From: Megasphaera micronuciformis F0359
GTDB taxonomy: Bacteria > Bacillota > Negativicutes > Veillonellales > Megasphaeraceae
Direction of reading: 5' to 3'
DNA: 64,000 nucleotides
NCBI RefSeq assembly: GCF_000165735.1
Contig: NZ_GL538208.1
Location: forward strand, 13,879 to 77,878
A program made the position numbers and the translations under genes. Below, in pieces: positions 23,832 through 61,873 of the stretch (its first letter is position 1; every line of letters starts with the position of its first letter). Below the pieces are notes generated by a model. The model did no database searches. It saw only the letters and a program-made list of their open reading frames with translations, and was not told the origin of the DNA.

Positions 23832-24609
23832 AATACATAAGGCTTTTGACCACGGACCGGCCTTTATTACCTTTCTGACAGCCGGTGATCCGACACCTGA
23901 AAAGACGGTAGAATATATTTTAGAAATGGAAAGAGGCGGTGCGGACTTAGTGGAAATCGGTATTCCTTTTTCAGATCCTATTGCCGAGGGGGTTGTCATA
24001 CAGGAGGCTAATATACGGGCTCTTAGCGGGCATACGAAGATAAAAACGGTATTTGATATTGTAAGAAAAGTGCGTCAACGCTCTCAAATCCCCTTGGTAT
24101 TCATGACTTATGTGAATCCTGTGTTTAATTACGGTAAAGAACGATTTTTTTCTGCTTGTGAGGAAACGGGCGTGGACGGGATTATTATTCCCGATCTGCC
24201 CTTTGAAGAACGGTCCGAATGCGCAGATGTTGCAAAAAAACACGGTGTATCTCTTATTTCTATGGTAGCACCTACCTCTCAGGACAGAATTAAGGAAATT
24301 GCCGCTGTAGGAGACGGATTTTTGTATGTCGTCTCATCTCTCGGCGTTACGGGAACAAGAACGAAAATTACGACAGATTTAAAAGAAATGACGGACCTCA
24401 TTCGTTCTGTAACATCTATTCCTGCTGCCGTAGGTTTCGGCATCAATACGCCTGAACAGGCTTCTGCAGTTGCCGCTGTTGCCGACGGTGTAATCGTCGG
24501 CAGCGCTATTGTAAAAATCATAGGCCGATATAAGGATGAAGCCGGTCCCCGCATTTATGACTATGTAAAAATGATGAAAGCAGCCGTTAGGAAGGCTGCG
24601 GAAAAGTAA
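23824..24609 (+). CDS. trpA: tryptophan synthase alpha chain
   Basis: 261-residue TIM barrel releasing indole from indole-3-glycerol phosphate. Catalytic Glu/Asp in [15 protein letters not shown] and IPDLPFEE; phosphate loops VGFGIN and GSAIV. Start ATG 23824 overlaps trpB; ribosome site AGAGGGAGG lies inside trpB. Last gene of trpEGDCFBA, followed by a strong terminator. Confidence 0.97.
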
Positions 24610-24616
24610 GCAAAAG

Positions 24617-24658
24617 GAACACCCCGTCTGCAGGAGACATCTGCAAACGGGGTGTTTT
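24617..24658 (+). terminator. trp operon terminator
   Basis: AACACCCCGT.TGCA hairpin (arms ~24618-24632 and 24643-24655) followed by TTTTT, 10 bases after trpA. Confidence 0.9.
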
Positions 24659-24929
24659 TCAACCATATTCAATTGTCGTAAAGTCTTATCTTAGTGTGTC
24701 TATAAAATATACAAGCAGATTACTTCCATTTAAACGTTCTTACACGACCTACATAAAATATCCTTTGGCATAGCACGCACAACAGGTAATCGAAGAGATA
24801 CTTTTGAAATACGTATTTATTTCTTAAGAGTGTTGTGTGTAAAACGGTAAATTGTCGTCATGCTATACGTCCATCCGTAATCCTCTCTTACAGAGAAATC
24901 TTTTCTTGCAACGTAATGAGCGACTCTGT
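24659..24929. other. gene-free spacer
   Basis: About 270 AT-rich bases with no credible frame, RNA consensus or repeat. On the minus strand it is the downstream side of the structured RNA at 24930-25093; no obvious intrinsic terminator for that RNA was found, so its 3' end may be processed or lie in this spacer. Confidence 0.4.
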
Positions 24930-25093
24930 TTCCAAGTGGAGGTGCAGTCAAGAAGTACCGCCCGAAGGAGTCGTCGATTACAGGTTCTTACTGATGGTGC
25001 GAGTCCGCCGACCGTGAGAGGAACAGCCGCTATATTGCGAAGGCTCACTGTGTTGTTCTGCGTCCAACGGAATCACCTCATCTCCTTGATTTT
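24930..25093 (-). ncRNA. candidate structured non-coding RNA, class unassigned
   Basis: About 165 bases on the minus strand, starting ~7 bases after a strong promoter (25100-25127). Basal stem GAGGTG/CACCTC plus CAAG/CTTG (24933-24944 with 25074-25088); hairpin one GTGAG/CTCAC enclosing AGC..CGC-AATATA-GCG..GCT (25014-25048); hairpin two CAGT.AAGAA..CC / GG..TTCTT.ACTG (24945-24959 with 24983-24993) topped by CC-TTCG-GG. Size and closed-rod outline recall 6S RNA, but no diagnostic sequence was matched. No open frame with a ribosome site overlaps it and no gene follows on that strand. Confidence 0.55.
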
Positions 25094-25099
25094 GCCTAC

Positions 25100-25127
25100 A
25101 GTATAACATGGGAAAGGGGCGTGTCAA
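25100..25127 (-). promoter_or_regulatory. strong promoter driving the structured RNA
   Basis: Minus strand: perfect -35 TTGACA (25122-25127), 16-base spacer, -10 TATACT (25100-25105) preceded by TGT (extended -10). One of the best promoter matches in the window although no protein gene lies downstream. Confidence 0.75.
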
Positions 25128-25318
25128 GAGCGAATTCATACGGTTAATGCAAGATATGAAGACCTGCATGCGTAAAAGTAAACGGGATTTAGACAATAAA
25201 ATTTAAAATCACAAAGTAAATAGGATAATTATTTAAATAGTTTAAAAATCTGATTATAAGTGTCGGCGTTGATGGATTAGCATTTCTCGGTGCTCCCGGG
25301 TATATAGTAGTGCAGAAA
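25128..25318. other. gene-free spacer
   Basis: About 190 AT-rich bases between the promoter of the structured RNA and the cupin terminator. Nothing recognisable seen. Confidence 0.4.
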
Positions 25319-25364
25319 GAAACAGCCTTCAGCTCATACCGATTAGTGAGTTGAAGGCTGTTTC
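25319..25364 (-). terminator. terminator after cupin gene
   Basis: Inverted repeat GAAACAGCCTTCA..CTCA / TGAG.TGAAGGCTGTTTC, 11 bases past the cupin stop. Confidence 0.7.
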
Positions 25365-25375
25365 GTCGTACCTGA

Positions 25376-25729
25376 TCAGTCGTTAATAATAAGGGCCATG
25401 AAGACGAAGTCTTCCGTTCCCTTTGTGTTGTCTACGCCGTGTTTAAAACCGTTAGGCGTGAAGGTGACTTCGCCCGGACCGATTTCCCGGATCGAACCGT
25501 TGTCGTTGTAAAGTGCATGCCCCTTGAGAACATAGTAGGTTTCGCTGTTGCCGACGTGTTCGTGGTAGCCCAAGGCGGAACCGGCAGGGATGGTTACTTC
25601 CGCATAAAGTCCGCATTTGTCGTTCAGTTCTTCCTTACCCAATAAATGCTTAATATACATAGGACCTTGCCCGCCGGCGTGATTCATCTTTTCATCCGTC
25701 CGCAAATCGGATGTTACGAAATTTTTCAT
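25376..25729 (-). CDS. cupin-domain protein
   Basis: 117-residue single cupin. Metal-binding motif 1 is YHEHVGNSETYYVLKG and motif 2 is TFTPNGFKHGVDN, giving the His/Glu/His set. Such small cupins bind a metal and may act as isomerases, dioxygenases or sensors; the substrate is unknown. GGAGG stands 9 bases before ATG 25729 and only 3 bases before ATG 25735, so the second ATG is preferred. Monocistronic. Confidence 0.8.
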   Translation of the reverse strand: MKNFVTSDLRTDEKMNHAGGQGPMYIKHLLGKEELNDKCGLYAEVTIPAGSALGYHEHVGNSETYYVLKGHALYNDNGSIREIGPGEVTFTPNGFKHGVDNTKGTEDFVFMALIIND

Positions 25730-25832
25730 ATTCATAATCCTCCTTCTGAATTGAAGCTCTGTTTATTATACGGCAAAGCGGGTGGAAATAAAACAGACCT
25801 GCACGTTAAAGAGCAGGTCTGTCCTATGGAAT

Positions 25833-27671
25833 CTAGTATTCAGTATCTTCCGTTAAAGGTGTTTTTCCGAAGCGGGTTACCAAATCCTTCTTTTCCCAAT
25901 GCCATTTGGGTGAAGCCAAACTGATGGAGTCGTCATAAGCAGGTGATTGCATATTGAGGATACCGCAAACCAGTTCGTATACGAGGTCATTAGTGAAGTA
26001 TGACTGTGCATGAGATTTTAAGGTTGCCGTAATCTCCGGATTACGTTGCATGTAGTCGTCGGAAAGCCATGTAAACATGGGAATCCGCAAAACCTTAAAG
26101 CTGGCTCCGTCAGGTTGACGGGCAATGCTCGGGTCCGAACCGTGGTCGGAGAAATAGAGCATGGCATCTAAGTGCAGGTTATCTCTTGCGTAGTCGAAGA
26201 CTTGGGACAAGAACCAATCGGTATATAAAATGGTATTGTCGTAGTCCGCCTCTTGATTTATCTTGCCGTCATCAAATTTTTGGAATTCTGCCGGATAGCG
26301 GTTTCTATATTCTATGTGGCTGCCCATAATGTGGAGAACGACAAAGTTCTTTTCATTCGGGTTCACCTTCGTTAAGAACTGTAACAGGGCTCCGTCCAAG
26401 GTCGATTCTTTTAAGTCCTGGTCGACCCATTCCGAGACATCTGCTGTCTTGGCAATGAGTGAAATCGGTGTATCGGCTACGCCTACGGAGCCTTGATTAC
26501 TAAACCAATACGTCTTATAACCGGCTTTTTTTGCCATGTCGATGATAGAAATGGATTCATTAAACTGTTTTGTATTGTAGAAATTAGACTCCGTCAAGGC
26601 ATGCTCTAATACGGGAACCGTATACCATACACAGCTGTAGACATTAGTAAAGAGGGTGAAGTGCGGGTCTTCTTTTACGGCACTCAACCAAGGCGTATTG
26701 TCCGGTGCTGACGGGTTATAGGCATTCATGAGTGTTCGTGTTTCTGATTCGCCGATAACGACGATAACCGTATTGGGTCCCAGTCGAGGATTGAGCTGCA
26801 CTGCCTGTAAAGCGGCATATTTATCATCATGATTTTCCGCATATAATTTAGCCCGTTCCAAATAATCGTGAGTGTCTAAAAAAGTTCGTACAGGAAAAGA
26901 ATTAGGCAAGAGTTCGTCGTACAATATCCAGACGGACGGAACGATGACGAGGAGGGACAATAAGGGTAAAATCTTTTTGTATACCGTCGTTTTCGGCAAA
27001 GATGGTGCCGTATAGTGGGTGCCGAAGAAGAATGCGATAATAAGGAATAGTAGAAACATAGTACCGATGATCATTCCCGCACCTAACGAATGCAGGTATT
27101 CCAGTGTTTCAGCCGGACCGGTTTGGAAGATAATCAAAGAACCGGATGTGGTAATACAAGACTGATACAGACTGTAGTAAGCCCATTGCATGACGTTGAC
27201 GGCTACGACAAGAAGTAGCAGTCCGGTCATAACTAAAGCGCTTATTACGCGCGGTAAGAATTGCTTGGCCGTCATGGATAAAAGAAAAAGTACGGCAAAA
27301 AGAAAGAGACCGTTATATATGTCGTAAATATTATTTAAGTAGACCGTGTTGCCGTTAATTAGAGTTATATAAGCCAGATACGGCCCCGTGATTATCCATG
27401 ACAATCCCACGAGAGCCGGTGCGGCAAGGGTGCGAAACGACAAATTTTGCACGTATAAGGCCAAAGCAACTACGACAGCGCCGACAGCGGGAATAAGGCC
27501 TCGCAGCATAGCGTCTATATTATCCTGACCCAAACCGAGGGACACGATAAATTGCCACTGAATACATAAGGCATATAAAATAATGAAGACCCCAATGAGG
27601 GATAAGATTCGTTTCTTTGTGTATATCTTATGGGGTTCTTGAATATATTCTGAGTCTGATGATTGATGCAT
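25833..27671 (-). CDS. phosphoethanolamine transferase-like sulfatase-family membrane enzyme
   Basis: 612 residues. Residues ~20-290 hold about seven to eight membrane helices; residues ~310-590 form a periplasmic alkaline-phosphatase/sulfatase domain. The nucleophile motif is IGESETRTLMNAYNP, matching the GES(A)xR form of CptA/EptB-like enzymes (Ser in place of Thr); YFSDHGSD provides metal ligands; HIMGSH is also typical. Expected to decorate lipid A or LPS core with phosphoethanolamine in the outer leaflet of the inner membrane. Start ATG 27671 follows GGAGGAGGA; an upstream extension to 27857 has no initiation signal. Donor and target are inferred. Confidence 0.8.
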   Translation of the reverse strand: MHQSSDSEYIQEPHKIYTKKRILSLIGVFIILYALCIQWQFIVSLGLGQDNIDAMLRGLIPAVGAVVVALALYVQNLSFRTLAAPALVGLSWIITGPYLAYITLINGNTVYLNNIYDIYNGLFLFAVLFLLSMTAKQFLPRVISALVMTGLLLLVVAVNVMQWAYYSLYQSCITTSGSLIIFQTGPAETLEYLHSLGAGMIIGTMFLLFLIIAFFFGTHYTAPSLPKTTVYKKILPLLSLLVIVPSVWILYDELLPNSFPVRTFLDTHDYLERAKLYAENHDDKYAALQAVQLNPRLGPNTVIVVIGESETRTLMNAYNPSAPDNTPWLSAVKEDPHFTLFTNVYSCVWYTVPVLEHALTESNFYNTKQFNESISIIDMAKKAGYKTYWFSNQGSVGVADTPISLIAKTADVSEWVDQDLKESTLDGALLQFLTKVNPNEKNFVVLHIMGSHIEYRNRYPAEFQKFDDGKINQEADYDNTILYTDWFLSQVFDYARDNLHLDAMLYFSDHGSDPSIARQPDGASFKVLRIPMFTWLSDDYMQRNPEITATLKSHAQSYFTNDLVYELVCGILNMQSPAYDDSISLASPKWHWEKKDLVTRFGKTPLTEDTEY

Positions 27672-29483: not shown

Positions 29484-30791
29484 ATGATAAGAAAGAATAC
29501 TTTATTAGCTATAAGTATATTGTGTGCAGTAAACGGATGGAGTATGGCGGCTAATAGCCTGAATATAGGTGAAAATAGTGTAGTAACCGGGGATAATTCC
29601 GTAGTCGGAGGAAAAAACTCCAGTGTTAACGGGAATAATTCTATTGCTTTCGGAGAAGGAGCTAAAGTTACGGAATCCAGTGTCTTTGCAATCGGAAAGA
29701 GAGCGGAAGTTTTAAAAGAAAACAGTCTTGCTATAGGTAATAATACAAAGGCGACTGAAATTATGACTACGGCTGTAGGGTATGGTTCCAAGGCTAAAGA
29801 TAAGTATGCTACGGCTGTGGGGTATCAGAATACGGCTACCGGTAACCAGTCATCTGTCTTCGGGTCCGACTCCGAAGCTTCGGGGACCAACTCTCTGGCA
29901 GTAGGCAGTCATGTGGAGAGCAAAGGTGACTATAGCGTCGGCATGGGTTTTAAGGCGAAAACAGACAGTGAGGGAGCTGTCGCTATCGGTAATCAGGCAA
30001 CGAGTTCCGGGGAAAACGGATTAGCATTGGGAACCATTGCCAATGCAACTCAAAAGGACTCGGTGGCACTGGGCCATTCAGCACAAGCAACGGAGATCAA
30101 CAGCGTTGCGTTAGGCTCCAGTTCCACGACGGATCAGGCCGTATCCACCGCCGTCATGACGATTAACGGTACGAATTATAATCTGGCCGGCAGTACGGCC
30201 GACAGTACTGTATCTATCGGTACAGTGAGACAGAATGCACAAGGCGATATTTTTGAAATTAAGCGAACTATTACTAATGTAGCCGCAGGTCGAGTGTCCG
30301 ATACGTCGACAGATGCGGTTAACGGTAGCCAATTACATGCTGTGACGCAGGCTATTGAAACCAATGCCGGCAATATACGTCTTTTAGACAACAGAATTAA
30401 TAATATATCCAATATAGCAGCTACACAAGCTAATAACTATACAGACTCGCAAGTAGGGAAAGTAGGAGCCAGGTCAGCCGCTTTGGCAGGACTGCATCCG
30501 CTTGAATTTAATAAGGATGACAAGGCCAGCTATGCTGTTTCGATGGGCAATTATAAAGGAAAAAGTGCCGTGGCTTTGGGGGCTTTTTACCGGCCCAATG
30601 AACGAACTATGGTCGGGTTCGGGACGACAGTGGGAGACGATACGCAATATACTTTGAATGTATCCTTTAAAACCGGTAAAGGGAATGACTATGTTGCGGA
30701 AGGCAAGTCGAAGGATGCCAGAATTACCCGTTTAGAACTGTTGGTACAGCAATTGTTACAAGAGGTTCAGGAATTAAAAGCAAGTCGATAA
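29484..30791 (+). CDS. YadA-like trimeric autotransporter adhesin
   Basis: 435-residue outer-membrane adhesin. Signal peptide 1-22; residues ~25-225 are a head of ~14-residue YadA/Hep_Hag repeats (NSIAFGEGAKV, NSLAIGNNTKA, ATAVGYQNTA and so on) that form a trimeric beta roll; neck motif DAVNGSQLHAVTQAI near 277; a short stalk; and a YadA anchor from GARSAALAGLHPLEF (~328) to YTLNVSFKTGKG (~398). A further ~35 residues follow the barrel and end in a leucine-rich heptad stretch (LELLVQQLLQEVQEL), unlike classical YadA, which ends with the last strand. Own terminator. Its presence shows a true outer membrane. Confidence 0.93.
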   Translation: MIRKNTLLAISILCAVNGWSMAANSLNIGENSVVTGDNSVVGGKNSSVNGNNSIAFGEGAKVTESSVFAIGKRAEVLKENSLAIGNNTKATEIMTTAVGYGSKAKDKYATAVGYQNTATGNQSSVFGSDSEASGTNSLAVGSHVESKGDYSVGMGFKAKTDSEGAVAIGNQATSSGENGLALGTIANATQKDSVALGHSAQATEINSVALGSSSTTDQAVSTAVMTINGTNYNLAGSTADSTVSIGTVRQNAQGDIFEIKRTITNVAAGRVSDTSTDAVNGSQLHAVTQAIETNAGNIRLLDNRINNISNIAATQANNYTDSQVGKVGARSAALAGLHPLEFNKDDKASYAVSMGNYKGKSAVALGAFYRPNERTMVGFGTTVGDDTQYTLNVSFKTGKGNDYVAEGKSKDARITRLELLVQQLLQEVQELKASR

Positions 30792-61679: not shown

Positions 61680-61820
61680 AAAAAAGCCGTCATTCAGATG
61701 ACGGCTTTTCTTATCTTTTTCCGTTCATCTGCCGGCATAAGCCGTCGGACTTGGCACCTTCCCTAACGGGGGTTGCCGCAATGTCATCGGGCCGTATCCC
61801 TCAATTGCTCTTGATGAAAT
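61680..61820 (-). promoter_or_regulatory. SAM-I (S-box) riboswitch with terminator upstream of metQ
   Basis: Minus strand: P1 5' arm TTCATC (61814-61819) with GATGAA at 61723-61728, AAGAGCAATTGAGGGA, GATGACATTGCGGCAACC, TTAGGGAAGGTGCCAAGTCC and GACGGC, the S-box core. It is followed by the terminator AAAGCCGTCAT / ATGACGGCTTT with T-run (61680-61709). SAM binding should end transcription before metQ. Confidence 0.95.
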
Positions 61821-61843: not shown

Positions 61844-61873
61844 ATTATAACATCGTGGAAATAAATCTGTCAA
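61844..61873 (-). promoter_or_regulatory. metQ promoter
   Basis: Minus strand: -35 TTGACA (61868-61873), 18-base spacer, -10 TATAAT (61844-61849). Confidence 0.8.

Follow-up and report, generated by a model that had tools for sequence, protein, structure and literature searches.

A minus-strand unit in Megasphaera micronuciformis that probably represents the surviving front end of a cupin gene

Locus Organization and Predicted Transcript

The window analyzed here is a 64,000-nt stretch of the Megasphaera micronuciformis F0359 genome (contig NZ_GL538208.1, positions 13,879 to 77,878). It includes a minus-strand cupin gene (cupin A; Cupin_2, PF07883, 4.5e-10; 25376–25735) which, in the tree of these proteins, is a paralog of a second cupin, cupin B, that is missing here. 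Cupin A is the upstream neighbor of the unit described below. Between this gene and the trp side, the only open reading frames on the minus strand are one of 72 aa that starts ahead of the promoter, one of 61 aa and one of 97 aa (in part antisense to trpA). As none of these is supported as a gene, the sequence of the interval supports a free-standing minus-strand unit, as originally predicted.

The unit starts with a near-consensus promoter with an extended -10 element on the minus strand (25127–25100), in which TTGACA and TATACT are separated by 16 nt, TG precedes the -10 hexamer and 11 of the 12 consensus positions are matched; this part of the original prediction holds. Sites that score at least 11/12 number 10 in the 64 kb window, this one included, and six of them have the TG, compared with means of 1.5 and 0.25, respectively, in 12 first-order Markov surrogates. 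At a looser cut of 9/12, promoter-like sites are not enriched in the region (4 vs. 3.8 expected from shuffles). The promoter block is conserved in related genomes. The corresponding block of Anaeroglobus geminatus F0357 (G014) also has six 24-nt matches around the -10 element, at 96–100% identity, from five genomes that belong to a different genus of this order (L161–L165 and L168). These are promoters of leaders that by motif look TPP-riboswitch-like, and the likeness probably reflects convergence of strong promoters, a point that counts against homology of the block in the window.

On the minus strand, RNA polymerase would start near 25093 and run for about 480 nt to a terminator-like hairpin of 16 pairs (9 GC) with a T-rich tail (24656–24618), which on the other strand also lies behind trpA. 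This hairpin is the strong minus-strand site in the scanned region (24000–26000) and none is found near 24930, so that the predicted transcript (24612–25093, with both ends predicted) comes to about 480 nt and not to the 165 nt originally proposed.

The claim that this transcript has no reading frame is not confirmed either. A Shine-Dalgarno-like element (GAGGTGATTCC, 25069–25079, minus strand), which has an aligned counterpart in each of the 13 starts of the front-end comparison described below, precedes a TTG at 25067 that opens a predicted frame of 29 codons (MDAEQHSEPSQYSGCSSHGRRTRTISKNL, 24978–25067), where ribosomes could load and translate. The frame is no longer than expected by chance (P = 0.19 in shuffles), and a Pfam search with the 29-codon peptide gave no match.

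Predicted Folding and Known RNA Families

The locus had been thought to encode a compact, consistently folded RNA reminiscent of 6S RNA. The predicted fold of the segment concerned (24930–25127) is no more stable than that of shuffled sequences (z = +1.67; 195 of 200 shuffles equally stable), and the same applies to its transcribed part, 24930–25093 (z = +0.53; 144/200). The complete predicted transcript (24612–25093) is more stable than shuffles (z = −2.56; 1/100), a stretch that includes the terminator hairpin. Among the three sequences that could be aligned, no stem is conserved with significance: the covariation term is +0.81, and 23 of the 106 predicted pairs are changed on both sides with pairing kept. 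One helix of this alignment raised the idea that the body sequesters the Shine-Dalgarno element. This was rejected, given that the accessibility of this element and the start codon lies within the range of shuffled bodies at all four loci considered below (shuffles at or below the observed value: G014, 30/60; Colibacter massiliensis, G004, 52/60; G002, 34/60; M. micronuciformis, G000, 11/60).

The absence of an assigned class, in contrast, is borne out. A scan of the window with Rfam 15 yields five matches, none of them at 24930–25127 at gathering score; with E-values up to 10, there are no minus-strand matches within this segment and a single chance-level snoRNA match (17 bits) on the plus strand, and for the relatives L078 and L033 all matches with E-values up to 5 are far below gathering. 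RF00013 has no match here, and the 6S RNA of this genome is encoded elsewhere (G000:C33:328909-329085, 78.2 bits); together with the negative scans, this led us to reject 6S and the other Rfam classes (SRP, tmRNA, RNase P, riboswitches). What is conserved at the locus is a promoter and a translation start that are common to a cupin gene, rather than a structured RNA of about 165 nt.

Elsewhere in the window, a SAM riboswitch (Rfam, 77 bits; 61722–61820, minus strand) follows a 12/12 promoter at 61873 on the same strand, and a repetitive protein of 435 aa (29484–30791, plus strand) is encoded, which by motif resembles a YadA-type adhesin.

Homology of the Front End to a Cupin Gene

We compared 15 genomes of the genus, in a grouping that includes Anaeroglobus and Colibacter, with two outgroups from the family (G015 and G016), and read the 3′ stretch behind 19 of the 21 cupin matches (those of G025 and G028 were left out). 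In nine of the 15 genomes (G003, G005–G009 and G011–G013), the promoter, Shine-Dalgarno element and start open a gene for a 108-aa cupin, here denoted cupin B, with the front-end pattern TGACA .. TG(C/G)TATAAT .. SD .. GAGTCCA(A/G)TG. In four others (G000, G002, G004 and G014), the same block comes after cupin A but is not followed by a cupin; G014 and G004 were assigned to A. geminatus F0357 and C. massiliensis on the basis of identical sequence. Of the remaining genomes, G001 has a cupin but not the block, and G010 yielded neither a cupin nor a trpA match; both outgroups encode tandem cupins, again without the block. In the tree of 19 cupins, cupin B and the outgroup copies G015a and G016a are separated from the rest with support of 84/87, and the nine cupin B proteins from those copies with 93/93. 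The gene order in G011 is cupin A, cupin B and then trpA on the other strand. The adjacency to trpA is not universal, this gene being located about 8 kb from the cupin in G014 and about 6 kb in G004. In Colibacter, a region about 6.4 kb from the cupin (G004:C2:59126-59488) matched only residues 138–258 of trpA, which may be split, broken or diverged in this organism.

The homology of the block in the window (25055–25118, minus strand) to the promoter, 5′ UTR, Shine-Dalgarno element and start of cupin B is supported by several searches. A DNA search of 40 genomes, including that of M. micronuciformis itself, gave a single other match below an E-value of 0.01, in G004, with 82% identity over 55 nt from the -10 element into the first codons (E = 1.2e-7). 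The first DNA searches gave only G004; the G014 and G002 loci came to light when the sequence following cupin A was inspected. Of the weak DNA matches, the four that were inspected (L004, L025, L026 and L167) all fall within unrelated reading frames. Front-end models were searched against both strands of the window, L078 and L079 (88.7 kb). For the model of the nine cupin B starts, the top three matches were the two sister loci L079 (E = 0.0023) and L078 (0.003) and then the window at 25128–25056 (0.026), followed by one at 0.99. The value obtained for the window with the nine starts alone falls below the inclusion threshold of the program, and significance arises via intermediate relatives: 2.8e-5 after the addition of G002 and 3.9e-8 with 12 relatives.

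When the whole cupin B transcript was modeled, G002, G004 and G014 gave matches to its 5′ end (9.7e-10, 2.3e-7 and 4.3e-7, respectively) and to its 3′ end with the terminator (5.3e-5, 6.1e-5 and 1e-4), with nothing significant between the ends; no match was reported in G000. Hidden cupin codons can be dismissed because a cupin B protein profile, run against all six frames of the four cupin-less bodies, gave a best E-value of 2. The 5′ UTR of cupin B itself contains a predicted hairpin of varying length (L033, L036, L040 and L042; AATGC-GAAA-GCATT in G007 and G008), an insert that, in the front-end alignment, is missing in G011 and the four cupin-less loci.

Conservation and Divergence of the Body

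G014 and G004 share 80% identity over 409 nt of the unit (E = 2.4e-92), albeit unevenly, with some 30-column blocks reaching 28/30 and others dropping to 9/30. For comparison, the fourfold degenerate sites of the neighboring sulfatase gene are identical at 90/223 (G014–G004), 91/213 and 88/205 positions in the pairs of G014, G004 and G000, i.e., 0.40–0.43, which we take to be near saturation. In the cupin A gene beside the G014 and G004 units, 19 of 38 fourfold sites are identical and the overall nucleotide identity is 0.67. The excess of the unit over the fourfold level of about 0.40 implies a constraint on its nucleotide sequence, so that, judging from this comparison, the body clearly appears to be under selection in Anaeroglobus and Colibacter.

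The body in the window, with its first 20 nt excluded, has no significant similarity to those of G004 and G014 by local alignment. The best match to G004 (24895–24860) is equaled or exceeded by 18 of 500 shuffles, and the best match to G014, located elsewhere, by 72 of 500; likewise, a model built from the G014 and G004 bodies found nothing in G000 or G002. The block matched in G004 (CTCTGTAAGAGAGGATT...TATAGCAT, 24860–24895, minus strand) might form a hairpin, and its weak similarity is only suggestive.

The start position is kept in all four cupin-less loci, including the window, and the frames opened there comprise 29 (window), 32, 37 and 32 codons, none of them longer than expected from shuffles (P = 0.09–0.25 each). 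By eye, the peptides can be aligned only between G014 and G004, which in this frame show 10 differences in 27 codons, distributed 3/2/5 over the codon positions, with the residue altered in five of the eight changed codons. Given these numbers, coding is not the evident reason for the constraint. A second frame in the conserved middle block of G014 and G004 was considered and found to be unsupported: by eye, an indel makes the frame differ, and a corresponding start is absent from the window.

The 3′ UTR of Cupin B

The cupin B mRNA has a 3′ UTR of about 210 nt (L033:1816-2078), found in the same place in L034, L036, L037, L038, L040, L041, L042 and L047. Its conserved motifs include GAGGTTAAAGATACCAGAACCAAAAA, ATGAATATGAATCCTATAACGTA and repeats of TTCGAA, and its terminator has a ACATATGT loop and a stem with paired changes. 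In L033, nothing in Rfam reaches the gathering score. This 3′ UTR is a candidate source of a 3′ UTR-derived RNA. In six of the nine cupin B genomes (G003, G009 and G013 were left out as near copies), the 15 pairwise identities are 0.56–0.88 with gaps counted and 0.63–0.95 over the last 60 columns, vs. 0.38–0.79 at fourfold sites. The excess is clear in the distant pairs without G012; in the closer pair G006–G012, the values of 0.79 for the whole 3′ UTR and 0.68 for the last 60 columns are not above the fourfold value of 0.79.

Among the cupin-less genomes, G002 retains a recognizable piece of this 3′ UTR (2/500 shuffles as good), which is not recognizable in G000 (112/500), G004 (135/500) or G014 (379/500). 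The conserved 3′ UTR and the terminator with the ACATATGTC loop were not found in the window, where the terminator is unlike that of cupin B; the latter is present in G004 and G014.

Origin of the Unit and Alternative Explanations

On the strength of these sequence comparisons, we propose that the feature probably is what remains of a cupin B unit, namely its front end, in which the promoter, short 5′ UTR, Shine-Dalgarno element and start were kept while the cupin disappeared from the genome of M. micronuciformis and three others; descent of the unit from cupin B appears to be the most likely origin. The gene order in G011 and the tandem cupins of the outgroups suggest that the cupin was lost in these genomes rather than gained in the others, and this may have happened once rather than several times. 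However, a single loss has no firm backing in the trpA tree, which joins G000, G014 and G002 with support of only 71/64 and does not contain G004.

The front end might be a plain relic whose promoter and start have not yet decayed, which is a tentative reading and would agree with a body in the window that has no significant similarity to those of its relatives and no detectable cupin codons. Yet, with fourfold sites apparently near saturation in the sulfatase gene of G000, G004 and G014, a promoter without function would be expected to be barely recognizable by now, and the block is nevertheless kept in all cupin-less loci. This argument would carry less weight if the lineages had lost the cupin late and independently. 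We consider it a serious possibility, if short of an even chance, that a functional regulatory RNA was exapted from the cupin B mRNA, with selection maintaining the body of the RNA, possibly in its 3′ portion as in small RNAs derived from mRNAs, and the cupin becoming dispensable. This would account for the constraint on the G014–G004 body well beyond fourfold sites, including the third positions of the short frame, for the conservation of the cupin B 3′ UTR and its persistence in G002 without the cupin, and for the stability of the whole predicted transcript in the window. It fits less well with the window body, which has neither significant G014/G004 blocks nor the 3′ UTR motif, with a covariation term derived from three sequences and with the G006–G012 pair.

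Retention of the unit for the translation of a peptide of 29–37 residues is unlikely: the strong Shine-Dalgarno element, the in-register start at all four loci and the open frames there would be expected of such a gene, whereas the alignability of the peptides in one pair only, the pattern of codon changes, the chance-level frame lengths and the lack of a Pfam match for the window peptide are not. A 6S-like RNA or a structured RNA of another known class, which had only the originally guessed length in its favor, is extremely improbable in view of the Rfam and folding results. For the window itself, a decaying unit and a retained, fast-diverging RNA or short ORF appear about equally likely. More speculatively, and rather doubtfully, a former protein gene might now be an RNA gene in the lineage that comprises M. 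micronuciformis, Anaeroglobus and Colibacter, the cupin-less transcript, which would still originate at the old promoter, being selected as RNA and diverging rapidly in the species of the window. Should the body prove functional in Anaeroglobus and Colibacter, which its conservation suggests, one could trace here how a bacterial mRNA lost its protein but survived as RNA, and sister species that still have the protein-coding form would allow a comparison. If it is not functional, the locus cautions that a strong orphan promoter need not imply a structured RNA gene.

Comparison with Known Systems

The closest counterpart is the cupin B gene (Cupin_2, PF07883, 108 aa), with which the unit shares the promoter, the short leader, the Shine-Dalgarno element, the start and the place 3′ of cupin A seen in G011, as well as, in relatives, the terminator (G004 and G014) or a 3′ UTR piece with the terminator (G002). 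It differs from cupin B in the absence of cupin codons in the window, G002, G004 and G014, and the terminator in the window is a different one. With 6S RNA (RF00013), the unit has in common the guessed length alone, the locus having no match to this family and the 6S gene of the genome lying elsewhere. Among the matches listed in the literature search (at most 10 per search, of up to 3,084), as far as their indexed text goes, nothing refers to this locus. Bacterial small RNAs derived from mRNAs or 3′ UTRs are reported, for example, for MalH (PMC8081044) and for the glutamine synthetase 3′ UTR (PMC9731577). Unlike these, the unit in the window is predicted from sequence and its protein part is missing, but, as in those cases, the RNA product would be tied to the transcript of a protein gene.
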